Translations under genes and position numbers: made by a program
From: Aphelocoma coerulescens
Lineage: Eukaryota > Chordata > Aves > Passeriformes > Corvidae
Direction: 5' to 3'
Assembly (NCBI RefSeq): GCF_041296385.1
Contig: NW_027184083.1
Coordinates: 496,001-560,000 of the forward strand
DNA: 64,000 bases
Shown: positions 1,644 to 62,038 of the stretch, piece after piece
How positions within the stretch are numbered: the first letter of the stretch is position 1
How the letters are laid out: each line of letters opens with the position of its first letter
The notes under the pieces: model-generated
Database searches by the model: none
Told to the model about the DNA's origin: nothing
The model's input: the letters and a program-made list of their open reading frames with translations, nothing else

Positions 1644-1939
1644 TGTCGGGGGTCTCCTCCCCCTGCCATGTAGCCCTGGGAGAGGGGCCCTGAGGGCACA
1701 GACACACGGGGTTTCCCTGCCCCTGGTCAGCCTCGTTCCCCATTGGTTGGTTTGTGCTTCCTGCAGGGGCAAGGACCCTCGGGTCCCGTGACTGTAACAG
1801 TTCCTCGGCAGAGCCCCGGCCATGCGGCTGGGGAAATAAACATCTCTGAAACATCTATCAAGAATCCGTCCATATATATTTTTTTTCCACGGGACTCCTG
1901 GTTTGATATAGGCGTGTTACAGTAATCCCCGCTGTAACA
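1644..1939 (+). repeat. ERV-Y 5' LTR
   Basis: TGTCGGGG to GCTGTAACA. Contains an inverted CCAAT box (CCATTGGTTGG near 1740) and AATAAA near 1842. It pairs with 4232-4514. A possible primer site starts with TGGTGGTGAATTGTG at 1943; I cannot assign its tRNA. Confidence 0.85.
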
Positions 1940-2060
1940 AAATGGTGGTGAATTGTGAGCAGAACGATCCCCAATCCCTAAGCGACTGATTTGTGTGAGT
2001 AAACCCTGGAAACTTTGGATGCCTCTTCTTGGTTTTGTTTTGCTATTCCATATCTAAACT

Positions 2061-2302
2061 ATGGAGGAACCGTGGGAAGACTCTTGGCTTTCAGAGCCGC
2101 ATATGGACATTTATCTTAAACTTAAAATGATTCTTGAACAACGATTTGTAAATTTTAGCTTGATTCAACCTCAGAAAGAACTGAAACACTTCCTGGCATG
2201 GTTGTTTAAGAACTTTTTCTATGTTTCTTGGGATTTAATTCTTACCAAGGGCTTTTGGAAGACCGTTTGGACACAGTTAATATTTAAGTCAAAATATATG
2301 CC
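2061..2302 (+). pseudogene. ERV-Y gag start, matrix-like domain, 5' part
   Basis: ATG at 2061 opens 80 codons of a small helical protein with WLFKNF in the middle. The matrix domains of ERV-C (WLFQYF) and ERV-B (WISRNF) have a similar pattern, which supports a betaretrovirus-type matrix. Unlike ERV-C it starts ME and lacks an N-terminal glycine for myristoylation. The frame is cut by the solo LTR at 2303. The bases beyond that LTR (from 2951) lie in the frame that would continue this one if the LTR and one target-site copy were absent, so the gene was probably open here before the insertion. Confidence 0.65.
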
Positions 2303-2950
2303 TGTGCCGGTTTGGCCAAATTTAGAAATATATACTCTGAGAGAAGGCACAACCACCCCTCCCCCACCAGGTTCGGGAAAAAAAAAAAAATTTTCCTTGA
2401 AGGAAAGTGAAGAAAATAAAACTATTTATTTAACAAACACACGGGAAAGGAAAATGCGGTTAAATGGTAAAATCTTTCGCTCTGGAGGAAAAACCTGGGA
2501 AAGCGTTAGAGTCCTCCCTTTGGTCTCCTCGGAGCTGGGGCTTGGCCCAGGGCCAGGCCCTCTGTGCCCAATGAAAAGTCCTCCCGATGTGCTCTGAGGT
2601 TGAAAGCAGTCCAGTAGCAAAAGGAGAAAAATCCGGAATTCTAGAGAAGGAAAAGCAAAGTCCAACTCTCAGTCTCTCTCCGGAGAAAAAAGAAACTGAA
2701 AACAACTGGCCAAAAGCTGACTGGAACACAGAAAGCCCGGGTGCTTCCTTGCTCCCCTGCCGCGGCTGGGGAAAAAAAACCTCCTATCTTTATGTGACCT
2801 TGAACAAGCTGCAAACTGCTTTGAGAAAGTTTTGTTCAGTTTTTTCCTTCCCCCTCTCAGGCTCAGTTTAGAGGCATAGAAAGGCACAAAAATTAATTTC
2901 TGGGCATAGGCAGCGATATGGGATACACATCATAACGTCACCCCAAGACA
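2303..2950 (-). repeat. Solo LTR, family S, copy 1 (inside ERV-Y)
   Basis: About 648 bp, closely similar to 58971-59621. On the minus strand it runs TGTCTTGGGG to GGCACA and holds AATAAA (plus-strand TTTATT near 2426). Flanks are ATGCC (2298-2302) and ATGCT (2951-2955), a target-site duplication with one mismatch. It splits the ERV-Y gag start. Confidence 0.85.
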
Positions 2951-3562
2951 ATGCTGATGGAAGAATATTTTCGTGAATATTATTTAATTACCGAGACTGT
3001 TGAGCAATGTCAGCTGTGTCCTGGTGAAGGGAAGCCTGGCTCAGGGACCGTGCGACCCAGGCCACGTGCACCGAATGCTCTGCGAGCAGCAGCGAGGCAG
3101 ATCCCGTGCGCGGGTAGAGCCATGCGAGCAGCAGTGTCGATAGCAGAGCGAGGCGCGGCGGGAGCGGTGCGACCCGGCAGTGCCCGCCCGGCCCCACGCA
3201 ACGCATGGTGGAGCAAGCCCCGTGAGTGCCCGACCGAGAGGGGCGGAGCGCGGGCGGCGGCTGGCAGCGATGGAGCGGAGCCGTGCCCAGCCAAAACGCG
3301 CACTGGAGCAGGGCGCGGGGGGGTCATCGCTCAGGGGCCCAGCCGAGACATGAGTGCAGCCCCAGGCAGCGGCAGCAAAGCTGCGACCAGAGGAGGCGAC
3401 GCATGGAGAACGGAGCAGGCCCCGAACGTGACCCTGGGAAGAGCGCGCAGGCACCAGCAGCCCCGACAATTCCAACACGGGAGCGACCGAAAGAGAGAGC
3501 AAAGACACAGCGAGACAGAAAACAGCAGCCACTCGGAAAAAGGAAAAGACCATAGTAGCTAA
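2951..3562 (+). pseudogene. ERV-Y gag continuation and arginine/alanine-rich linker
   Basis: This frame resumes the interrupted matrix frame with an acidic, aromatic start, then turns into 170 low-complexity residues rich in R, A, G and S encoded by a CpG-rich stretch. It stops at 3560-3562, in a different frame from the cold-shock domain that begins just upstream of the stop; a +1 shift would be needed to join them. A second frame (3226-3555) also ends here with a basic tail (KRKR) and would need a -1 shift, near an AAAAA run at 3537-3541. The N-terminal regions of cellular Y-box proteins are also low-complexity, so part of this may have been captured with the domain. Which frame was real is not decidable from sequence alone. 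Confidence 0.5.
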
Positions 3563-4013
3563 GATTTTAGGGATAGTGAAATGGTATAATGTTAAACAAA
3601 ATTATGGTTTTATAACAAGATGTGATAACCAGCAAGACATATTCGTGCATAGAACTGCTATTAAAAAGAATAACCCTGAAAAATGCATCCCAAGCTTAGG
3701 AGATGGAGAGGTGGTGGAATTCAAAATCATACAAGGTAGAAAAGGGTTACAAGCATCACAGGTCACTGGGCCTGATGGTGTTCCTGTGAAAGGCAGTATA
3801 TATGCAAAACATCGTAGTCATGTTAGACAATATCTCCATTGTAAGCCCCCCCTACAGTCTCCCTTTCCTAATCCCACCTTTCCCTTTTACCCTATGTCCT
3901 ATTACCCCCAGTGTATTCCCAATCCGTTTTTCCATCCATGGTTTCCCTCACAAAACCCTGCCTTTGCCAATTGTTTCCCCAAAAATCCCTTTCCAATGCT
4001 GAGTGGGGGATGA
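3432..4013 (+). CDS. Y-box type cold-shock-domain protein captured inside ERV-Y
   Basis: The frame is open from 3432. Its first good cold-shock residues begin near 3560, and the conserved core runs to about 3840. Y-box hallmarks are visible: KWYNV, the RNP1-like NYGFI, the RNP2-like DIFVH, the TAIKKNNP loop, GDGE, and the VTGPDGVPVKGS end. The domain binds single-stranded RNA or DNA in cellular YBX proteins, and the expected aromatic and histidine contacts are kept. After it come about 57 residues rich in P, F, Y, N and W that do not resemble the basic/acidic repeats of YBX tails. No ATG precedes the domain in this frame, so expression would need splicing, frameshifting or a non-ATG start. 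There are no introns, consistent with capture from mRNA. I do not assign a specific YBX paralogue. Confidence 0.8.
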   Translation, partial: PWEERAGTSSPDNSNTGATERESKDTARQKTAATRKKEKTIVAKILGIVKWYNVKQNYGFITRCDNQQDIFVHRTAIKKNNPEKCIPSLGDGEVVEFKIIQGRKGLQASQVTGPDGVPVKGSIYAKHRSHVRQYLHCKPPLQSPFPNPTFPFYPMSYYPQCIPNPFFHPWFPSQNPAFANCFPKNPFPMLSGG

Positions 4014-4231
4014 AAAGGGGGAGGGAAGAAATTAAACCCTCTCCTGCCGCAGTTTCCCCACAAAGCATGCTCAGAGAGTTCTGTCTCCCTTCTGTCAGCC
4101 CTAAGATGTTCCCCAGAATCTGTTTGGACATTTAAAGACTTAGGAGGGTGGCTTGTTTTGTTTTGAAACTGTTCTTGTTATGTTAATCCAGTTGTCTTCA
4201 TTCTCCTTTTATTAAAATAAAACGGGTGAAA

Positions 4232-4514
4232 TGTCGGGGTCCCTCCCCCTGCCATGTAGCCCTGGGAGCCCTGAGGGAGGCACGGGGTTTCCCTGCCCCT
4301 GGTCAGCCTCGTTCCCCATTGGTTGGTTTGTGTTTCTTGCGTGGGCAAGTACCCCCGGGTCCCGTGACTGTAGCAGTTCCTCGGCAGAGCCTCGGCCATG
4401 CGGCTGGGGAAATAAACATCTCTGAAACATCTATCAAGAATCCGTCCATATATATTTCTTTTCCACAGGACTCCTGGTTTGATGTAGGCGTGTTACAGTA
4501 TCCCCACTGTAACA
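4232..4514 (+). repeat. ERV-Y 3' LTR
   Basis: Same family and orientation as 1644-1939, TGTCGGGG to CTGTAACA. It has AATAAA near 4411. Purine-rich sequence precedes it, and GCTCCC follows as the right target-site copy. Confidence 0.85.
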
Positions 4515-4560
4515 GCTCCCCTTCCCGCCCCGGGACCGGGAGGTCCGACAGAACTGAGAA

Positions 4561-9297: not shown

Positions 9298-9673
9298 TGT
9301 AGATACAAAAATGCAGCTAGCAGGGATTTTCTTGCTAGCTTCTAAGTCCGTGAGAGACTTTTCTCTCTCACAGAAGAGGTAGCAGGGAATGTAAACAACC
9401 AAGACACCTGCAACCTTGAAAAGTCTTGTTTATGGGATAGTAGAAAAATATTTTGACAATGGATGTTTTAGGATTTTAGCCAATCACCCCCAAGGGGTGG
9501 CTGGTCCTTTGTCCAATTAGACTAAGAAGAAAAAAGTCTATAAAAGAGTTTGTAAAATAATTAAATAAATCAATCTTGCTCCACAATTCCTGCCTGCTGG
9601 ATCTGCTCCTCCTCCTCCTCCCTATGGCTGCGGGACACGGTGATATACCGTAGGAACCAGGCCTGCGGTAATA
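9298..9673 (+). repeat. ERV-A 3' LTR
   Basis: 376 bp, the same length as the 5' copy, with the same CCAAT, TATA and AATAAA layout and the same U3 stem-loop. It is followed directly by env sequence of another element (ERV-F) with no visible target duplication. Confidence 0.87.
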
Positions 9674-12361: not shown

Positions 12362-13500
12362 ATGGGATCTTTGGGGAGTAAACCTGAGAGGGCACCTATG
12401 GAGGGTAGCACAGGTAAAACAAGGCACCCATGGAGGGTAGCAAAGGTAAAGCTGGGAAGGGGCCCTGGAAAAAGGGATGACGATCCCAAAATATATCCAA
12501 AGAATCCCTTGGAAGAATATGGAATTGGTTTACACATTATCCCAGAGGTAATTAAGGACATAGATGCCCAGAGGGGGCAATAAGGGAAAGTCAAGAAGGG
12601 GTCTTGACAACAGGAGATGGACAAATAGTGTTGATATGTTGAGAAAAAATTAGTTGAAGGGGAGTGTAGAGAAATATGGTTGAGGCAAGGAGCGGCAGGA
12701 CCGGGTGAGGAGGTGCAGGACCAGGAGCACGGGCTGGGGGCCTGTGGGGGCTGCAGGGCAGCTCGGGCTCAGCGCCAGGCAGTGTCTGACCCCATCATCC
12801 CTGGGCAGGGGTGGCAGCGGCCCCTGGCCCCATGAGTTGCAGGACACCCCAGCCAGCTGTAGTGCTGCCAGCCTTGCACCCTGGGAGCGCCAAGAGGGAC
12901 GAGCCATTTGGACACTGGCAGGACAGGGACTGGCTCTGGTATACAGTATATGATAAAGAGAGTGAGCACAAGGAGGAGGAGAAAGGAATATCTGGGAAAT
13001 GCACATTATACGTGGAAGGATTAGAATTTTCTTTTAAGGATTTTGGTTGGTTCACTAGAGAAACAAATGATTTTGAGCTGTGGGAGAATGAGCACCCACA
13101 GGCAGTAGCGGGGGGGACTAGAGGAAGGGCAGAATAAGTCCCTGGATGAACTGGTTAGAAAGATACAGCAAGTGTATGTAAGAAGCGATGAGGAAAAAGC
13201 AAAAGCAAAGGCAAAGGTGATGGCAGAGTTTTTATGGCCCCAGAGGGATAAACTGCAGGGTCCAAGGGGTCCCTGGGGATAGAAGGGGTGGGGTCAACCA
13301 CAAGGAAGTGGCAGAAGCATTCCCTCCTCAGCAAGGGAGAGCCAACCCAAACAGTGGTGGGGAAGGAATTAGTCTGTATCTGCAGGGCAGAGGGACACTA
13401 GAAGCGGGACTAGCCACAGAGACAGCTGGATCCTCAGAAGAAGGAAGTCCAGAGGAGAATAGAGAGATTTTTAGGGGTGTTAGGGGTTCCGATTATTCTA
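12362..13500 (+). pseudogene. ERV-G gag remnants
   Basis: A short frame from ATG 12362 begins MGSLGSKPE, the MG start and length of a gammaretroviral matrix, and ends at 12583. Further on, 13140-13235 in another frame reads like the end of a gammaretroviral capsid, with a charged EEKAKAKAK helix. The intervening sequence is full of stops and frameshifts, and no nucleocapsid zinc knuckle is visible. The EEKAKAKAK segment recurs on the minus strand at about 61595-61650 in ERV-H. Confidence 0.6.
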
Positions 13501-13640
13501 GGGACCCACCACACTGGAGCCCTTGCTAACTTTTAAGGTGGGTCTGGATCAAGAGGTGTGTTTCCTGGTAGACACAGGGGCCTCTTGATCCATTTTGAAT
13601 TTTATCCCTAAAGGGGGAAAATTGTCAAAAAGATCTTTGA
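13500..13640 (+). pseudogene. ERV-G protease fragment
   Basis: Around 13563-13583 the bases read LVDTGAS, the aspartic protease active site, followed by an in-frame stop and then an ILNFIP-like continuation. Only about 45 codons remain. Confidence 0.6.
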
Positions 13641-15290
13641 TTATTCAAGGGGTTGTGAAAATTGTGGTTTCTTCTGTAGTCTTAGAAGTTCGAACACATC
13701 TTTCTCTGAGGTAATTGTGGAAATTGTGGTAAATGGATTTAGTGATTTAATTTCTTTGTCTACATGGGGTTTTGTGCGGAGCCTAAAGCTCCTGTTTGGA
13801 GAGGACCCACGCCCCTGTGCCTTTTGTATGTTTTGTTGTGAAAAGCCAGAATTGGCAGGTTTCAGTCCTGAAGCCAATTCTGCAACTCCTATCTTGCAAG
13901 GAGCCCTCCCACCAGTCTGTGGTTTGTTGTGGAGAGCTAGAATTGGCAGGTTCTAATCCTGAAGCCAATTCTGCAGCTGCTTCCTCGTGGGAATGGTGGT
14001 GTCCCTATGCAGGCTTAGGTATTTGTCATGCAACTTCCTCTGTGGGGGCTGTAGGAAAACTTTAGGGGAAAATGTTTTGTTATCCTTCCTTGGTTAATTT
14101 GTTAGTTGCCTCTATCCCTGGGGTGGACTTGATGCAAAAAATTGGGATAGGGGGCAATTGGTTACTAAAAAGATGATTGGCTACTAAAAAGGTGATTGGT
14201 TATTAAAAAGGGCTTTAGGCAGTGGCATTGCTTGCTGCTGAATTTGATCATGTCCAAAAGGAAAATCACTGGAACAAAAGGAGCAAACTGATAAGGCAAA
14301 CTCCTCCAAGGTGAAAAGCAGAAGCCTACTAAGTTAATGCAATTAACAACTTGTTTCACTCAGACTTATTTTGCTGGGGAAGTTTGTTTCTTTTCTCTTT
14401 TCTAGGAATGTCAAACATCCCGGCATCAAAGATAAGGAAAAGGGTTTGAGAGCAAGGAAACTGCAAGCAGCAAAATCATACCTAAATGTGATAACCATTG
14501 CTTCACGTGGACTCTCACTTTGTGCTAGCCCCAAAAAGTTTTACTTCTTTTTTTTAATAATCGGTCTAGTGGGCCAAATTTTCACTTTTCTTCTATAAGA
14601 ATCTACCAACACATGAGATGGAGCTGTATGAAAAAAAAAGAAATTTAAAGTGTCACCATAATTGCTTGAGTTGTCAGTTGGTTAATGTTTGCAATTTGTT
14701 TGTGTTTTCATTGCAAGTGACTTGGTGGGAGATCAAATAGTAGTTAAAGCATTCTACATATTCTTGAGTTTAACTTTTGTCTAACTTGTTTTGTCTTTTT
14801 ACTGAAAAATGGTGTGGCTAAAGGTCTTAGAGATGTATAATTTGTCTCAACCAATATTATCCTGAGAGTTGGTATAAGAATTTATACATATTTGAAATCC
14901 TACAAATATGGACTAACCTTCCCAGCTCTGCCTTGGAAGGCTTCAAAATTATTATAATATGGCTAAATTTTTCAGATTTCCTTACTAGTGAATTAAAGAA
15001 TCTTAACAAAACACAAGCAAATGCTACATGAGAAATGATTGCATCCCCCTTCCTAAACCAGGAGGGGTAGCCATGGAGTGCAAATAGGACATGAATAAAA
15101 TACAAAAAAGTCTTCTACCAGCTCTCAAACTAATGTGTTGTTGAATTTCATGCCATATGTCTTAAGAGGCTGTTTTAACTTTGCCTCACTCCTCCTTTTG
15201 ATGCCAATCAGTGTAGTGACTACAGCACATTCTGCAATACACGTGCTTTTCAGTTGTGGGTGCAGAGTGTGATGAAGACAATTTACTCAC
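13640..15290 (+). repeat. Non-coding block shared, inverted, with ERV-H
   Basis: This stretch lacks recognisable coding but is closely similar to the minus strand of 60050-61600, including landmarks such as AATTGGCAGGTTTCAGTCCTG (near 13851) and an AT-rich end near 15250. Within it a unit of about 90 bp containing a GAATTGGCAGGTT core occurs twice (near 13838 and 13928). Both elements carry it in the gag-to-pol interval, so it seems to be an old family-specific interior and not a recent transposition. Confidence 0.65.
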
Positions 15291-19982: not shown

Positions 19983-20273
19983 ATGGGATCTAATGTTTCT
20001 GCACACCATAGAGAAATATACCACCAAGTTCAAAGCTACCTTTCTTGTACTGGGCATAAATACCCTAAAAATCTAGTTCAATCTTTTGTACAATGGCTTT
20101 TTCAGTACTTTCCTAATCTGACCTCCGAGGACATAAGATATCCTGAATTTTGGGATAAGGTGGGGAGAAAACTCTCCTCTCTTAGGCATGCAGGAGACGA
20201 AACAGTTTCAAAATTCTTTCCTCTCCTGTTACTAAGTTATATTTTGCCAGAGAAAAAAGCAGTACATGAAAAG
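19983..20273 (+). pseudogene. ERV-C gag matrix, interrupted by ERV-B
   Basis: ATG 19983 gives MGSNVSA, a myristoylation-type N-terminus, then a betaretroviral matrix-like helical domain (WLFQYFP, FWDKVGRKL). The frame is cut after 97 codons by ERV-B; GAAAAG at 20268-20273 is the target copy. Gag resumes at 44130. Confidence 0.82.
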
Positions 20274-20833: not shown

Positions 20834-21159
20834 GGATCCCGGACCCCGGACCTGGCCTGAGCTGCGTCTTGACTTGCCAAGACAGAACCAGCCGTTCGTG
20901 TGCTGATCCTCTGAAGATAGACCTACGTTTTAGCAGGCCTTTTGGACGGGGACAGTTCGAGACCCTCGCCTCCCACCTAGGACAGAAGTCTGTGAGGATC
21001 GAACTGCCAGACCATCCCCCCAGCAGACCTTTCTAGGAGCCAGCCTCACCAGAAAACGGGATTTGTAAGTTTAAATTTGGGGCTCTCTCCTCTTTCTTGC
21101 GAGAAACTTAAAGTAATTTTGGGGTTTTTTCTCTTTTTTCTGCTGAGGGAGGAACTAAG

Positions 21160-23781
21160 ATGGGACATAGGCAAGCTAAACCCAGCCTTTCCCAATCTGA
21201 GAGAGACCTATACCCTTTTCTTCTAACCCTTCTCTTAAAATCTGACTTTAAATTCTCTACAGGTGCTCTTTCTAAGAAAAGTCTTAAATCTTTCAGTAAC
21301 TGGATATCTCGAAATTTTCCTGACGCTACAACAGACTCTGTCCTTTCTGATCCGTTCTGGGACAGAGTGGGGAACAAACTGTATTCCTCTCAAGCCACGG
21401 GAAACCTCTCTGTTTCCAAATTCATTCCTTTATTTCATTTATTGGTTAAAATGTGTCGTGCGACAAACCCCCCTCAGACAAACCCGTTCTCTGCCCTCCC
21501 CCCCTCCTACTCCCCCTCTCCGCCTCCGGCAATGGCCAGCCAGAGCGCGGACCCCGCCTGCCACCCCCTCCCTGGCACGGCTGGGGCGCCGGCCACACCA
21601 CTTCCCTACCCCGATCCCCTATTCCCAGCAGTCCTCCCATACCCAACGCCCCCCGCTCGCCCCTTTGGTTCTGCTGCCACCCCCCAGGCAGCGCGCACGG
21701 GATCCATCCCAGACCCATCCCCGTTCCCGGGGATGGATGCCTCTGAGCCGCCCCCAGCCCCATCTCCCTGTGCCCCTGGTATTTCGCAACCCTTCGCACA
21801 CGACACCACCCTTCCCCCTCTCGCACCGGCTCGCGGTGCCTCTAACCCACCCCACCGCGTCCCACAGCACCGCATCCCAGCTTCCTGCCGCATCCCTGCT
21901 CAACGCTGCCCTGCCCCCCCCCCACCCCAGCGCGGCAGCCCCGTCCCAGCAAGTCACCCTGCGGCCGCTGCCCCTCCCTGCACCCACGGAACAAGCATGG
22001 TACAACACGGGGCTGGTTCCGCAGAGCCCCACGCACGCACTGTGGGGCACGGAAAAAGCGTCCGCTCCTCTCGCCGCTGGCGGGACCCAGCTATCCGCAG
22101 CACTGCCCCAGCCTACTGCCCGAGGAGTGGAATCTCCCTCCCCCCTCCCCCCTCCCCCCACCGCCAATGGCACTGGCACCCTGGCAGGCACCGGCACACC
22201 TGCTCTCTCCCCCCCAGCTGCATCTTGCACAATCCCTGATGCTCCCCCTCTCCCTACACCCCCCCTCCCCCTACCACGGGTTCTTGCGCAATCCCCATCT
22301 CCTCCGCTGCTGCACTAGAGCCTACAGCCCCCCCACACCCTCCTACAGCTCATGTTGACTCCACACGGAATTGCGAAACCGGCACTACCTGCAACCCAAC
22401 CTCCCCCCAAACGACCTGCTGCTGTACAACCTCTCCACCCCCATGCTGCCACAACAGACCCCCTTCCCATCCCTCAAACCATCCCCAACCCCCAGCTACC
22501 CCTGCCCTGGCTAAAGGAAAGTCTGCATTTCAAAAATGCTGTGCTACGCCCCCTGTATCCCCACCCCGCCTTGCCACAGCTTATCCCTCCTTTTCAGATG
22601 ACAGTAGCAGCAGCTCTGACTCTGAATCTGAGGATCGATGGGCACAGACACGCAGGGAAGCAAACCGGGAGGGAGATTGGGAGTTAGCCCAGAAAATCTC
22701 AGCCTTTCCAGTCATTATAGGGAAAGGGAGGAGGGGTGGTCCAACTACAAAAACATGGGAACCTATCCCATACAAAGAAGTCAAAGAGCTTTGCAAGGCA
22801 GCAAAAGAACATGGGAGAGGGTCACATTTCTTTAGAAACTTATTGGAAGCCACTTTCTCTGCCTATACATTAGTACCACATGATATTAAAAACATTATTA
22901 ACTGCATCCTTTCCCCTGCTGAATATATGTTATGGGAAAGGCATTGGAAAAGACATTTAAAAACATTGTCTGACACTTATGCTAAAGATGCAAATCAGAC
23001 AGATTGGAAAATAGAACAACTGGCTGGAGAAGGTGACCTCCAAAAACCTTTAGATCAAGCTACAACCGTACCTGAAGTAGCATTACAAGACATAGCTAAT
23101 GCAGCAAAAATATCGCTGCTCCTTACTCCTGATGATTCTGTTCCTACACAATATTTCTCTAACATCAAACAGTCAGTAAATGAATGCTTCATTCAGTTTG
23201 TTGACCGTTTAAAAGCTAGCTTAGGGAAACAGATAGAGAGTCCGGATGGATGAAAAGAACTTTTGGGTAAACTTGCCATGGTAAATGCTAATGAACAATG
23301 TAAGAATATCTTGAGGGCCCTACCCATGGACACAGAACCCACAATAGAACAAATGATAGAGACCTGTACCAGACACACATCCACAGAAAACACAATGACC
23401 CAAGCAGTTGTAAAGGGCATCACAGAGGGAGTTTCTGGTGCATTTGCTGCAGCAGTCTCTAAGGAGAATGCCCGCTGTTTCTACTGTGGCGAACTTGGAC
23501 ACTTTATAAAGGACTGCCCACAAAGGTCACCCACTCAGGACCGTCGTGCCGCCTACCAAAGGCACCAGAGACAGCAACAGCACCAGCAGCGTCCAAAAAA
23601 CTTCTATCGCAGCGCAGTGTCAAGGCCCTGCGCTCAAACAAATCAAAGGCCATACTACCCCGCCCCGGCTGCAAACTCCACATCGAGTCACCGAGAGCAG
23701 ACAACTGGACCTCACCCGGCACCATCATCCCAGGCGATCCCAGAACACGTGAGAAGGATCCAACACATGGAGTGCTACTGA
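21160..23781 (+). pseudogene. ERV-B gag
   Basis: ATG 21160 starts MGHRQAK with a myristoylation glycine and a matrix domain (NWISRNFP, FWDRVGNKL). A long pyrimidine-rich stretch (about 21480-22560) encodes proline-rich spacer, including LPPSYSP, a possible late-domain-like site. It contains frame changes. Capsid runs from about 22640 to 23430 with an acidic/serine entry and a stop at 23251-23253. Nucleocapsid has one good zinc knuckle, CFYCGELGHFIKDC near 23476-23517, then a Q/H-rich tail to 23781. The stop and frame changes make it non-functional. Confidence 0.82.
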
Positions 23782-24001: not shown

Positions 24002-24327
24002 TGTAGAGAGCTTATCTGAGGAATGGCTGCGCAGCAGAGGACATGATAAGATAGAGCCTTGCAGGATGTAGGAGTTAGCCTGTCGTGGGAAAAGGGGTTT
24101 CTTATCATCAAGGTGTCCAACAGGACACAAGCCAGAGCAGATTGGAATGAAGAAACCATCACCGCGGGGTGTGTTGTTCCCACGAGAGAAGATGACCAAT
24201 CGTGAGCTCAGGTTTTGCAATATGTATGAGCTGTTTAAGTGTTGTATAAATAAGAGATGAAAAGACAATAAAATCGAGGCTTGCCGATCATGAAATCATG
24301 AGCTTGTCTCCCGCGCCTTTCCCGACA
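24002..24327 (+). repeat. ERV-E 5' LTR
   Basis: TGTAGAGAGC to TTTCCCGACA. TATAAA at 24245-24250 and AATAAA at 24267-24272 are 22 bases apart, the compact arrangement of avian leukosis-type LTRs, where the poly(A) signal lies upstream of the cap site. Confidence 0.92.
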
Positions 24328-29970: not shown

Positions 29971-31386
29971 ATGTCCCAGAGCTGTGGCAGGTTAAACCCC
30001 GTGACTGGGACAATGTGTGCCGCCGGTATACTCGCCGTATTGGGTCTTCTAAGCGTCCCAGGCACTTTGGCCCTCAAGCATAGATACCCTCCTAAGCTAT
30101 TCGATCCAAGGCAAAATGTTTGGGTATCTTTGGCACACGAATTAAATACAACTACGTTCTGTGCCAGCTTAGCTACCCCAAGTACTCCTTTTCTTACGTG
30201 CCTAATAGGAGTCCCCCTAACAAATACAACTTGGCTCCATTTCAGGTCAGCCGCCAATGATACAGGGTTCCGATCAGGCCGAATTACTGGCAATAACATC
30301 ATTGAAAGTTTCGAGCAGTATGATGTATGGGATGACCGCCTCCCATTCGGGCCTGAGCCGCAAGAGATTGAATTGATTGATTCTTTAAACGCCACTAGTT
30401 GCTTTTATATAGATAGCAGAAATTCACACTGCTCTGAAGGCACGCATACCAACTGCTGGAAAAATGTATCTACTCCTACTTGGTTGTCTCCCATAGGGAA
30501 CAGTTTAGAATGGGAAAAATCGTGGTGCAACCACACTGGTAGGACACAGGAAAAACCTGCACCAGGCACAGTCATACCCAGAAGGCTGCCCCCTGGATAT
30601 TTTCTAATTTGCGGAAATCGTGCTTGGTCCGGCATCCCTACCTTGCCCGTTGGCGGTCCGTGTACAATCGGACAGCTTAGTTTAGCCCTTCCACAGCACC
30701 ACCCAAATAAAACCCACCCCACCAGATGGCGCAGAGACCTATCCCAGACCCTCCAATCAAATTGTGATGATGAATTGACCTTGTGGAACAAGTGGGAGGT
30801 AATTTTTTCATCACTATTTTTGCCTGGAGGGGCAGCAGCTCGAGCTCATCGCAATATAGAGAGATTAAGCTGCTGGGTAGTGAAGCAAGCAAATGGAACA
30901 AGTAGAGTACTGTCCGCACTTGCAGATGATTTAAGCACAGCCCAGCATGCTGTATTACAAAATAGAGCTGCTATTGATTTTCTGTTGTTAGCTCATGGAC
31001 ACGGGTGTGAAGAATTTGAGGGATTATGCTGCATGGATCTAAATGATCATTCTCGCTCTATTCATGCAGAGATTCAACAGCTTATAAATCACTCTCAAAA
31101 AATTAAGGAAGATACAGGTTTCTTTGGCCTAGATGGGCTGGTCAGTGAACTGGGATTGGGTGGTTGGGTAAGAAGCATGGTAAAAACATTGTTTCTCTTA
31201 TTGATTATGGTTTTGGTAGGATTAGTCCTGTTCAGCTGCGCTCTAACTTGTATCAAGAGGGTACTGCTAAAAACAACAACTCTGAGCATGATAGCACATA
31301 AAGAAAACGGGGGAAGTGTAGAGAGCTTATCTGAGGAATGGCTGCGCAGCAGAGGACATGATAAGATAGAGCCTTGCAGGATGTAG
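29971..31386 (+). CDS. env: ERV-E envelope glycoprotein
   Basis: 471 residues from ATG 29971; ATG 30013 is an alternative that begins directly at the hydrophobic signal peptide (AGILAVLGLLSVPGTLA). The surface subunit has many N-glycosylation sites and paired cysteines. The RWRR furin site lies near 30724. The transmembrane subunit has a fusion region enclosed by cysteines (from 30763 to about 30870), as in avian leukosis viruses, a CX6CC motif (CEEFEGLCC) near 31006-31032, and a membrane anchor near 31186-31254. The frame reads through the polypurine tract and stops inside the 3' LTR. It is fully open, with no damaged motif. Confidence 0.9.
   Translation: MSQSCGRLNPVTGTMCAAGILAVLGLLSVPGTLALKHRYPPKLFDPRQNVWVSLAHELNTTTFCASLATPSTPFLTCLIGVPLTNTTWLHFRSAANDTGFRSGRITGNNIIESFEQYDVWDDRLPFGPEPQEIELIDSLNATSCFYIDSRNSHCSEGTHTNCWKNVSTPTWLSPIGNSLEWEKSWCNHTGRTQEKPAPGTVIPRRLPPGYFLICGNRAWSGIPTLPVGGPCTIGQLSLALPQHHPNKTHPTRWRRDLSQTLQSNCDDELTLWNKWEVIFSSLFLPGGAAARAHRNIERLSCWVVKQANGTSRVLSALADDLSTAQHAVLQNRAAIDFLLLAHGHGCEEFEGLCCMDLNDHSRSIHAEIQQLINHSQKIKEDTGFFGLDGLVSELGLGGWVRSMVKTLFLLLIMVLVGLVLFSCALTCIKRVLLKTTTLSMIAHKENGGSVESLSEEWLRSRGHDKIEPCRM
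31300..31316 (+). promoter_or_regulatory. ERV-E polypurine tract
   Basis: AAAGAAAACGGGGGAAG just before the 3' LTR. It is also coding (KENGGS) within env. Confidence 0.88.
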
Positions 31387-31642
31387 GAGTTAGCCTGTCG
31401 TGGGAAAAGGGGTTTCTTATCATCAAGGTGTCCAACAGGACACAAGCCAGAGCAGATTGGAATGAAGAAACCATCACCGCGGGGTGTGTTGTTCCCACGA
31501 GAGAAGATGACCAATCGTGAGCTCAGGTTTTGCAATATGTATGAGCTGTTTAAGTGTTGTATAAATAAGAGATGAAAAGACAATAAAATCGAGGCTTGCC
31601 GATCATGAAATCATGAGCTTGTCTCCCGCGCCTTTCCCGACA
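31317..31642 (+). repeat. ERV-E 3' LTR
   Basis: 326 bp, read as identical to 24002-24327. Followed by GGACAC. Confidence 0.92.
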
Positions 31643-48423: not shown

Positions 48424-51005
48424 TGTAGTGGTGTCATAGGTTAGCAAGCATAGTCCCGGAAGGGATGTCCTTGCCAAGGGGTGCTTACAGCTTCTTCTGG
48501 GACCTGATAGAACCTATCAGCAGCCAGTTTGAATATGGACAATTCTTTAAGCCACTTAAAGCTGTGACTGCCTCTGTGATACACACTTAAGAATAGACAA
48601 ACTCCCCCCCCAAGCTCTCTCTCATTTCCAGTGCTGGGACAGGTGGCTGCAGGGCCCGAGTGGGGGCCAGGAGGCCAGGCCAGGCCCTGCTTGGGCCAAG
48701 CCGGGCTGGGCCAAGGCCATCCTGAAGCCGATGGACCTTTTCCATCTGTGGAACCGCCCCTGCCACTTCCTTGCCGTGGGCAGCCGGAGCTGCTCAGCTC
48801 TCCCCCCTCTACACTGCGATAAGAAAAATTCAACATTCCAGCTGCAAAGCTGCAAGGCTGAGGTGAGATTAACCCTTTTATTGCTGTGAAGAGCTGAAAA
48901 CCTGAGGGAAGAGAAAGAGGAGATGCTTAAAGCTGAAATTCTGTTGAGAAGCTATGATATATCAGAGTATCCCGGTGTAATTTCATGAAGATATGGGGGG
49001 TGGAGTGTTCAACTCGTAAGCAAAAGCACCTGCGCTGAGATAGGCAGATGCTGACGCAGCTGTAATTTCATGAGAAGTTTGGACAGGGAGAGATGGACCA
49101 GATGAGGACTTTTGCTCCAAACGGGAAAGGAGGAAACCTCAGTTCCTAGAGATGCTCCCAGAGATAGTCCTAACGATGAAGATGAGGAAGACCCTTTGCT
49201 CCCAGGGAAGGAGAAGAGCCTCTGGTTTTTGTTTCTGAATGGCTCAACCTTAAAATTATACCCCAAAAACCTTCAAGAGTGGATCCTCGAAAGCAGTTGC
49301 GGGAAAAGCTGCAAGTCGGGGGAAGAGACTCACATGCAGGCAGAGAGACTCCTCTTCCTAAATGGACTGAACAATATTTGGAAGTGGGCAGCTGTCTCGT
49401 TGTGATGCTGTTTTCATAGCACGAGCAAGAAGAGACTTCTCTTTCTAAATGGACTGAACAAGGTTATTAGGGAAGTGGTAAACCGACTGAACATCTTAAG
49501 GGTTGTCCTTTTACATTGTCAGAGGGAGAAGGGAGGAAGGGGGAGAGAAGGAGGAGAGTTCTGAAGGTATGGTATAATTTTTTCCCCCTCTTTTAGGTCT
49601 GTTAATAAACTTTTTTATATTCTTTCAAGTTTGGTCCCTGCTTTGCATTTCTCCTAATTCTTATCTCACAGGAGATAAACAGTAATGAGTATTTAGGACC
49701 AAACCACTACACTAAATTGGTGTTTCCGCCCGGTTGCAAACCCAACCCGCGACAAGTGGTTTTGTCCAAAATACTCATTACTGTTTATCTTCTGTGAGAT
49801 AAGAATTAGGAAAAATGCAAAGCAGGCACCAACTTTGAAAGAATATAAAAAAGTTTATTAACAGACCTAAAAGAGGGGGAAAAAATTATACCATACCTTC
49901 AGAACTCTCCTCCTTCTCTCCCCCTTCCTCCCTTCTCCCTCTGACAATGTAAAAAGACAACCCTTAAGATGTTCAGTCTGTTTACCACTTCCATAATAAC
50001 CTTATTCAGTCCATTTAGAAAGAGAAGTCTCTTCTTGCTCGTGCTGTGAAAACATTATCACAACGAGACAGCCGCCCACTTCCAAATATTGTTCAGTCCA
50101 TTTAAGAAGAGGTCTCTCTGCTTGCATGTGAGTCCCTTCCCCTGACTTGCAGCTTTTCCCGCAACTGCTTTCGAGGGTCCACTCTTGAAGGTTTTTGGGG
50201 TAAAATTTTAAGGTTGAGCCGTTCAGAAAGAAGAACAGAGGCCCTTCTCCTTCCCTGGGAGCAAAGGGTCTTCCTCATCTTCATCTTTAGGACTATCTCT
50301 GGGAGCATGCCTAGGAACTGAGGTTTCTCCTTTCCCATTTGGAGCAAAAGTCCTCATCTGGTCCATCTCTCCCTGTCCAAACTTCTCATGAAATTACAGC
50401 TGCGTCAGCATCTGCCTATCTCAGCGCAGGTGCTTTTGCTTACGAGTTGAACACTCCACCCCCCATATCTTCATGAAATTACACCGGGATACTCTGATAT
50501 ATCATAGCTTCTCAACAGAATTTCAGCTTTAAGCATCTCCTCTTTCTCTTCCCTCAGGTTTTCAGCTCTTCACAGCAATAAAAGGGTTAATCTCACCTCG
50601 GCCTTGCAGCTGGAATGTTGCTTATCGCAGTGTGGAGATGGGAGAGCCAAGCCACTCCGGCTGCCCACAGCAGCGCTGTGGGGCGTTTCCACGGATGGAA
50701 CAGGCCCATGGCTATAGGATGGCTGTGGCCCAGCCCGGCCTGGCCTGAGCAGGGCCTGGACTGGGCCCACTGGACCCCACACGGGGCCTGCAGCCACCTG
50801 TCCCAGCACTGGAAACAAAAGAGAGAGCTTGGGGGGGGGGGGAGTTTGTCTATTCTTAAGTGTGTATCACAGAGGTGGTCACAACTTTAAGTGGCTTAAA
50901 GAATTGTCCATATTCAAACTGGCCAGCTGATAGGTTCTGTCAGGTCATGGGGGGAAGCTGTAAGAAGACCATCCCTTCCGGGACTATGCTTGCTAACCTA
51001 TGACA
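48424..51005. mobile_element. Palindromic LTR-P element: LTR, primer site, inverted LTR
   Basis: A 1288-bp LTR (48424-49711, plus) is followed by 39 bases holding a primer site, then an inverted copy (about 49751-51005). Flanks are ATGTC on both sides (48419-48423 and 51006-51010), so the whole palindrome integrated as one unit into ERV-C integrase. The left LTR has TGTAGTGG and CCACTACA ends. The right arm lacks the outer eight bases and ends CCTATGACA. No gag or pol is present. A truncated relative is at 62833-62966. Confidence 0.85.
49718..49735 (+). promoter_or_regulatory. LTR-P primer-binding site, tRNA-Val type
   Basis: TGGTGTTTCCGCCCGGTT is complementary to the 3' end of vertebrate tRNA-Val (ending CGGAAACACCA). 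It lies in the centre of the palindrome. Confidence 0.75.
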
Positions 51006-58970: not shown

Positions 58971-59621
58971 TGTACTGGTTCGGCCAAATTTAGACATATA
59001 TCCTCCGAGAGAAGGCAGGTTACCACCCCTCCCCCACCAGGTTCGAAGAAAATAAATTTTCCTCGAAGGAAAGTGAAAGAGATAAAAACTATTTATTTAA
59101 CAAACACACGGGAAAAGTAAAATAATGCTAAATAATAAAATCTCTCGCTATGGAGAAAAAAAACCTGGGAAAGTGTTAGAGTCCTCCCTTTGGTCTCCTC
59201 AGAGCTGGGGCTTGGCCCAGGGCCAGGCCCTCTGTGCTCGGTGGAAAGTCCTCCCGATGTGTTCAAATATTGAAGCAGTCCAGTGGAAAAGGGAGAAAAT
59301 CCGAAATTCCAGGGAAGGGAAAAAAACATTCAACTCTCAGTCTCTCTCCGGAGAAAAAGAAGCTGAACAACTGGCCAAAAAACTGAACTGGGAGCAGCAA
59401 GGCGGGTGCTTCCTCCCTCCCCTGCCACAGCTGGGAAAAAACAAAGTTGCTATCTCTGTGTGACCTTGAACAATCTGCAAACTGCTTTGAAAAAGTTTTG
59501 CTCAGTTTTTCCTTCCCCCTCCCAGGCTCAGTTTAAAGGCATAAAAAGGAACAAAAATTAATTTCTGGGCATAGGGCAGGGCAGTGATATGGGATACACA
59601 TCATAAAGTCACCCCAAGACA
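58971..59621 (-). repeat. Solo LTR, family S, copy 2 (inside ERV-H pol)
   Basis: 651 bp, partner of 2303-2950. A perfect CAGTC duplication flanks it (58966-58970 and 59622-59626). On the minus strand it contains AATAAA (plus TTTATT near 59089). Confidence 0.9.
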
Positions 59622-60049: not shown

Positions 60050-61600
60050 ATTGCCTTCATCACATTCTGCACCTACATCTGAGTGCAGAATGTGCTATAA
60101 ATAGGAGGCATGAGGCAAAGTTACAATACTCTCTTAAGACATATGGCATGAGATTCAACAGCATATAAATTTGAGAGTTGGTAGAAGGCATTTTTGCATT
60201 TTATTCATGTCTTATCTGCAGTCCATGGCTACCTTTCCTGGTTTAGGAAGGGGGATTCAATCATTTCTCATGTAGCATTTGCTTGTGTTTTGTCAAGATT
60301 CTTTAATTCACTAATTAGAAAATCTGAAAAAATTAGCCATATTATAATAATTTTGAAGCCTTCTGAGGTAGAACTGGGAAGGTTAGTCCATATTTGTATG
60401 ATTTCAAATTTGTATAGATTCTTATACCAACTCTCAGGATAATATTGGTTGAGACAAATTATACATCTATAAGACTTTAGCTACAACATTTTTCAGAAAA
60501 AAAAAGACAAAACAAGTTAGACAAAAGTTAAACTCAAGAATATGTAGAATGCTTTAACTACTATTTGATCTTTCACCAAGTCACTTGCAATGAAAACACA
60601 AACAAATTGCAAACATTAACCAACTAACAATGCAAGCAATTATAGTGACACTATAAATTTCATTGGTTTTCATACAGCTCCATCTCATGTGTTGGTAGAT
60701 TCTTATAAAAGAAAAGTGAAAATTTGGCCCACTAGACCAATTATTAAAAAAAAAGAAATAAAACTTTTTGGGGCTAACACAAAGCAACAGTGAAGCAATG
60801 GTTATCACATTTAGGTGTGATTTTGCTGCTTGCAGTTTCCTTGCTCTCAAACTGCTTTATCTTCGATGCTGGGATGTTTGACATTCTTAGAAAAGAGAAA
60901 AGAAACAAACTTCTTTGAAAAAAATGTGAAAAATAAGTCTGAGTGAAACAAGTTGTTGATTGCATTAACTTATTCAAGTGGAGTTTTAGTTTTTATTATC
61001 TGAAGTGCTTGTTGCACCACTTTTGTTGTTTCCCACAGGATTTAAGTGGGGTTTCCTCTAATTGATTCTTCACCGGAGGGAGTGAGACTGCTTTAAAAAG
61101 TTTTGCAAGAGTTGCAGTCTGTGAATCAGGCATTTGAATTGCTTTTTCTTTTTTTATTTTTATTTTGTTCACTGGCCACTCAGGACAGGCGTTTTCTCTT
61201 AAAATTTCTCTATAGCCCCCACAGACGAGGCTGCATGACAAATACCTAGGCCTGCATAGGGACAACACCATCTCCACAAGGCAGCAGCAGCAGAATTGGC
61301 TTCAGGATTAGAATCTGCCAATTCTAGTTCTCCACAATAAACCACAGACTGGTGGGGGGTTCCCCACAAGATAGAAGCTCTGGATTGGCCTCAGGACTGA
61401 AACCTGCCAATTTTGTCTTTTCACAACAAAACACAAAAGGCACAGGGGCATGGGTCCCCTCCAAACAGGATCCTTTCAGCTCTGCACAAGCACCACATAA
61501 CAGGAGCTTTACAGCTCCACACAAAACACCAAGCAGAAAAGGGAACTAAACACCCAAATCTATTAACCACAATGTCCACAATTCTTAAAACTTCTGCCAT
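60050..61600 (-). repeat. Non-coding block shared, inverted, with ERV-G
   Basis: The minus strand follows 13640-15290 nearly throughout. No convincing coding. Confidence 0.65.
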
Positions 61601-62038
61601 CGTCTTTGCCTTTGCTTTTGCCTTTTCCTCATCCCATGTAACATACACTTGCCATACTTTTCTAACCAGTTCCTCTCAAATTTCTCACTATTCTCTGCCA
61701 CTCTCTCCTCACTCTAACATTATCTACACCTTCATTTTCTGCCAAGTTCTGTATTCCTGCTCTTTCTAGTTTGATACCAAGCTCTCTCCTCTGGCAGCTT
61801 GGACACCACCCACTCCTTCTAGTAGAAGTACAATACGACTTTCTCTCACAATTAATACATGCACACAAATACAAGCTTCACAACTGTTTTCACACACTAA
61901 ACACGGGATTTCAAAAGGGAAATCAGATGGAGCTATATTAGAAAGGCATTGGGCGTCCCAAGAATTAAGACCAAATAACTGAGGGGGAGGGGTTCTTCTA
62001 ACCTCGTGCCTAGCCACAATTCTAATTCTATTAGCACC
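61595..62038 (-). pseudogene. gag: ERV-H gag remnant
   Basis: Minus-strand pieces: the capsid-end EEKAKAKAK near 61620 and a PPP-containing segment near 61980-62017 (RRTPPPQLFGLNSW). Stops divide them. Bases 61919-62038 recur at 63788-63906. Confidence 0.5.

Follow-up and report, generated by a model that had tools for sequence, protein, structure and literature searches.

A 64,000-nucleotide stretch of the genome of the Florida scrub-jay, Aphelocoma coerulescens (contig NW_027184083.1, positions 496,001 to 560,000, forward strand; hereafter the window), carries at 1644–4514 a retroelement that encodes a cold-shock domain (CSD) of the Y-box type between two long terminal repeats (LTRs). This CSD element is best explained as a decayed member of a corvid family of non-autonomous LTR retroelements of the ERVK type, in which a CSD derived from a spliced host Y-box mRNA was fused behind an N-terminal domain resembling Gag matrix (MA), and whose MA-CSD protein would bind the element's own RNA and help the transcript into the particles of helper endogenous retroviruses (ERVs). 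We give this explanation as a whole a probability of roughly 0.6. Within it, the LTR anatomy, the CSD, a moderate MA homology, the in-frame fusion in relatives, the subfamilies and an apparent recombinant are established at the level of sequence.

Structure of the CSD element

The element, all of whose parts lie on the plus strand, is bounded by a 5' LTR of 296 bp (1644–1939) and a 3' LTR of 283 bp (4232–4514), both running from TG to CA and identical in 269 of 296 aligned columns. A 6-bp target duplication, GTTCCC on the left (1638–1643) and GCTCCC on the right (4515–4520), matches at five of six positions, which bears out the original prediction of a frame lying between LTRs of one family with a 5/6 duplication. 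Neither capsid nor protease, polymerase or envelope domains turned up between the LTRs, and Pfam applied to the three main frames of the element returned the CSD alone. The assignment to Class II (ERVK-type) relies on the MA match, on the length of the duplication and on the published name (see the NDP insertion below), no pol having been found in the element that could be placed in a tree. In both LTRs, at 1742 and 4318, stands CCATTGGTTGG, an inverted CCAAT (Y-box-like) motif, whose presence in a Y-box-encoding element may be due to chance or reflect an ordinary promoter box.

The whole element is nested in the leader of a second provirus, the LTRs of which align over 1181–1556 (5' LTR, aligned part, plus strand) and 9298–9673 at 96.8% identity, so this host provirus is the older of the two at the site. 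Downstream, the host provirus has Pfam matches to Gag p24, dUTPase, protease, RNase H and integrase.

The cold-shock frame at 3432–4013 is open, as had been claimed, and spans 193 codons; it matches the Pfam CSD profile (PF00313) with E = 7.5e-21, scoring 74.2 bits where the cut-off is 27. The domain itself (3570–3770, residues 47–113 of 3432–4010) is uninterrupted, and residues 38–127 of the frame align to zebrafish YB-1 (6a6j) without a gap (E = 5.5e-34), in keeping with the intronless, Y-box-type core proposed earlier. C-terminal to the CSD lies a Pro/Phe/Tyr-rich tail (3816–4013, including the stop) rather than the basic/acidic domain of Y-box proteins. The 3' non-coding region (4014–4231) contains no poly(A) tract, the longest run of A between the stop and the 3' LTR being four. 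The frame has no in-frame ATG upstream of the CSD; its first methionine is residue 155 of 193.

This frame covers the 3' half of a gene that extends further upstream. P0098, a protein of 440 residues from the New Caledonian crow (Corvus moneduloides) with 24 member sequences (not necessarily as many loci), joins an MA-like domain, a low-complexity linker, the CSD and the Pro/Phe/Tyr tail in a single frame. Its parts are found in the window at 2061–2306 (91% identity), at 2945–3415 (79%; residues 76–234, in one frame) and at 3414–4004 (92%; residues 242–438, in another frame). Judging from this alignment, the gene starts here behind a leader at 1940–2060; its ATG, at 2061, has an A at position −3 and a G at +4. 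The MA-like N-terminal domain (2061–2302, 91% to P0098 residues 1–80) is interrupted by a nested solo LTR (2303–2950, 85% to 58977–59620) that comes from a different ERV family and is flanked by its own duplication, ATGCC (2298–2302) and ATGCT (2951–2955). As P0098 is continuous across this site and has no LTR there, the solo LTR is a later insertion into the CSD element; once it and one duplication copy are subtracted, the element measures 2,218 bp. Behind it, the end of the MA-like domain and a GC-rich linker (2951–3431) suffer a frameshift near 3414 and a stop just before 3432. The relatives' gene thus corresponds to 2061–4004 of the window, and intact relatives stop after the tail. Of the earlier claim that a provirus had captured a CSD, the part on capture by an LTR element finds support, whereas the open frame turns out to be only the 3' part of a broken gene.

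A multicopy protein family with two subfamilies

A protein search with the frame gave 97 proteins among 124 candidates, and an alignment-based search gave 102 proteins among the best 7,991 candidates. Among the matches listed, at least 15 are close members of the family (P0001–P0007, P0098–P0104 and P0136), of which 12 come from C. moneduloides (12 clusters with at least 38 member sequences), one from A. coerulescens and two from ENA contigs. An MA-like start, with the CSD in frame behind it, is present in four of the 15 (P0098, P0102, P0103 and P0104), which have a common full layout as far as each extends; the remaining 11 start downstream or are partial. P0003 and P0005 contain antisense stretches of the CSD element, indicating that some entries are annotation products, not genes.

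As grouped here from the alignment, the family is multicopy and falls into two diverged subfamilies. Subfamily A comprises the window copy, P0098 and others, while subfamily B includes P0103, the intact relative from the Florida scrub-jay, together with P0104 and the partial P0136 of the crow. Between P0098 and P0103, the CSD (55/95 identical positions) is better conserved than the MA domain (39/106) and the linker (48/108, with 121 gap columns), and the tail agrees at 30 of 50 positions. In both subfamilies, a long open frame and the RNA-contact residues of the CSD are kept.

P0004 appears to be a recombinant of the two subfamilies, as expected from template switching between two co-packaged RNAs. 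Its residues 1–95 are B-type, matching P0104 at 68% over 94 residues (122 bits) versus at best 51% over 39 (37 bits) for the A-type proteins tried, whereas residues 96–230 form an A-type CSD, 79% identical to P0098 (235 bits) and 52% to P0104 (126 bits). The end of P0004 reads into the LTR of the CSD element, residues 263–280 matching 4409–4462 at 94%; less certainly, residues 254–301 match 1809–1952 at 53%, past the LTR into the leader.

Origins of the two domains

The CSD was placed in a tree of 21 rows (8 from elements, 13 Y-box) and 94 columns, in which the eight element CSDs form one clade (support 97/96) that stands on a long branch, separate from the 13 Y-box rows. Such a clade makes a single capture by the element lineage likely. 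The CSDs of the window and of P0001 are 54–62% identical to the vertebrate YBX rows (one truncated row excluded). Where the original prediction looked to a spliced YBX gene as best match and to the same LTRs at other loci, the search delivered a multicopy family and an LTR adjoining the CSD in P0004, but the tree singled out no one source YBX gene. A further protein, P0134 (JGI contig, 2,496 bases), has a CSD with the stretches VFVHRTAI and IPSLGDGE that are nearer to the element than to the vertebrate YBX rows.

For the N-terminal domain, 224 stop-free pieces of the window were scored against a profile built from five MA sequences of the family. Behind the two that belong to the element itself, the highest scores went to pieces starting at 21112 (37.5) and 19869 (33.6), the next being 23.5. 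In the first of these, a Gag N-terminus at 21160 matches the profile with E = 3.9e-6, a score reached by none of 200 shuffles, and this N-terminus shares its frame with Gag p24 (E = 3.3e-29), beyond which comes a zinc knuckle. The second MA-related piece (19986–20225) matches the profile with E = 1.1e-5 and the 21160 N-terminus at 33% (E = 4.9e-11). A separate profile comparison gave E = 1.9e-5 and a probability of 78, and in a single-sequence test the MA pieces of the window and of P0098 each beat 300 of 300 shuffles. Hence, the N-terminal domain of the element protein is probably Gag matrix in origin. In the ERV Gag itself (21160–23778; MA, p24 and zinc knuckle), a stop interrupts the frame between MA and p24.

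Relation to the NDP insertion of hooded crows

At a site 20 kb upstream of NDP, hooded crows carry a 2.25-kb ERVK insertion (corCorLTRK1b, LTR of 296 bp), which is reported to be homozygous in every hooded crow genotyped and to be associated with lower NDP expression, and which is a candidate plumage mutation dated to less than 534,000 years (PMC7341801). The 64-kb window was searched with the published primers, allowing at most three mismatches. P_L_R_2 matches once, at 3933–3952 in the tail of the CSD frame, and P_R_F_1 matches once, at 1958–1977 in the leader on the minus strand, each with one mismatch (chance means 0.03 and 0.00, respectively). Both primers are in the required order and orientation, at 582 and 334 bp from the element ends, so that the published products of 659 and 564 bp leave 77 and 230 bp for the flank (PMC7341801). 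The LTR is 296 bp in both cases, and the published 2.25 kb compares with 2,218 bp for the present element once the nested LTR and one duplication copy are discounted; the comparison of the two is thus one of primers, sizes and LTR length. Given that a published primer matches within the CSD frame, the NDP insertion is, on sequence grounds, very probably a member of the CSD-element family. The terms gag, cold shock, Y-box and open reading frame do not occur in the main text of that report (PMC7341801).

A bolder proposal can be advanced tentatively, at less than even odds: a songbird lineage of elements may have swapped capsid, nucleocapsid and pol for a Y-box domain, the MA-CSD protein would be an element-specific RNA chaperone in helper particles, and the NDP insertion, the proposed basis of grey plumage and premating isolation, would be its recent product.

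Proposed mode of spread and alternative explanations

In the explanation favored here, helper ERVs would copy the CSD element in trans. The CSD would bind and protect the element's own RNA, substituting for nucleocapsid, and the MA domain would bring the RNA–protein complex to the helper's assembly site, leading to packaging. Several observations weigh against this. An MA protein without capsid lacks the usual particle contacts for entry, and no second copy of the CSD-element LTRs, and hence no helper carrying them, was found in the 64-kb window. The MA homology is modest to moderate: the MA of P0103 fared poorly in the single-sequence test, with 26 of 300 shuffles reaching its score and its best match lying elsewhere, Pfam gave no match for the MA pieces, and Foldseek with a low-confidence MA model (pLDDT 64) found no match in the PDB.

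Among the alternatives, the one that survives best, though unlikely, is that the capture is real and the CSD is of no use to the element, the frames seeming intact since the copies are young. The window copy is indeed broken, and the NDP copy is dated to less than 534,000 years (PMC7341801). However, P0098 and P0103 differ at 40 of 95 CSD positions and yet both keep the open frame, the layout and the RNA-contact residues, with the CSD better kept than MA and linker. A less probable alternative is that the fusion changes germ-cell translation or growth in the element's favor, as gag-onc fusions do, instead of packaging RNA. A Gag–host fusion with the later viral genes lost is the very layout of acutely transforming retroviruses. 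Cold-shock proteins are reported to be tied to proliferation and transformation (PMC5922376), but the C-terminal domain of YBX has been swapped for an unrelated tail in the element.

Much harder to sustain is a history in which a domesticated Gag-CSD host gene came first and acquired LTRs afterwards; P0103 of Aphelocoma, represented by just one protein on a contig of 4.7 Mb, would fit it, but the 12 or more clusters and at least 38 member sequences in C. moneduloides do not, nor does the continuation of P0004 into the LTR. Finally, a YBX pseudogene made by a long interspersed nuclear element (LINE) and landed in the provirus, to which the uninterrupted CSD would be suited as if from a spliced mRNA, is scarcely credible and largely contradicted already by the CSD in frame with MA in relatives and by the same layout in two subfamilies; nothing was seen of a processed pseudogene with its own poly(A) tail, which the original prediction had set against itself, as no run of A exceeds four.

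Other features of the window

Two direct repeats 7.3 kb apart (24002–24301 and 31317–31616) are identical over 300 bases and may represent the LTR pair of a very young ERV. At 48523–50923, arms measuring 365 nt (95%) and 288 nt (99%) enclose a short center and make up a large, palindrome-like inverted repeat of about 2.4 kb. The segments 13145–15202 and 60097–61675 are in opposite orientation and 78–98% complementary over six arms.

Comparison with known systems

Known retroviral captures mostly concern signaling and growth genes. In the gag-onc acutely transforming retroviruses, an N-terminal piece of Gag is joined to a captured host frame and the virus is replication-defective. The CSD element resembles them in the fusion of an N-terminal Gag piece to a host frame and in being defective, and differs in that it is a germline multicopy family with an RNA-binding domain, not a kinase or transcription factor.

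The literature searched contains no report of this element's captured Y-box domain, nor any description of an RNA-binding domain joined to Gag where all other viral parts are gone. Thus, while capture of a spliced host mRNA by an ERV is already known, the Gag-fused RNA-binding version appears new to the searches made. Its interest is that an RNA-binding domain became part of the element's gene and persisted through a subfamily split; if the CSD packages RNA, this would be a new solution for the spread of defective elements. Moreover, through the likely NDP link, a mutation that is a prominent candidate in bird speciation would acquire a hidden coding history. Both questions, the function of the CSD and the NDP link, are open to test with existing crow genomes.

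The nearest precedents are crocodilian ERVs that captured host genes, KIT-ligand in CrocERV29 and nectin3 in CrocERV31 (PMC4299795). They share with the CSD element a spliced host mRNA in a multicopy ERV, and their captured genes encode signaling or surface proteins that lie between pol and env or replace env, whereas the CSD element has an RNA-binding domain attached to the C-terminal side of MA, and later viral domains were not found between its LTRs. Proteins of the Y-box class are themselves recruited by a betaretrovirus for assembly. With YBX1/2/3, the element has in common the Y-box-type CSD and its RNA-contact residues, but where YBX proteins continue into a basic/acidic C-terminal domain (PMC6040738), it dispenses with those repeats and has instead a Pro/Phe/Tyr tail and an N-terminal MA-like domain.
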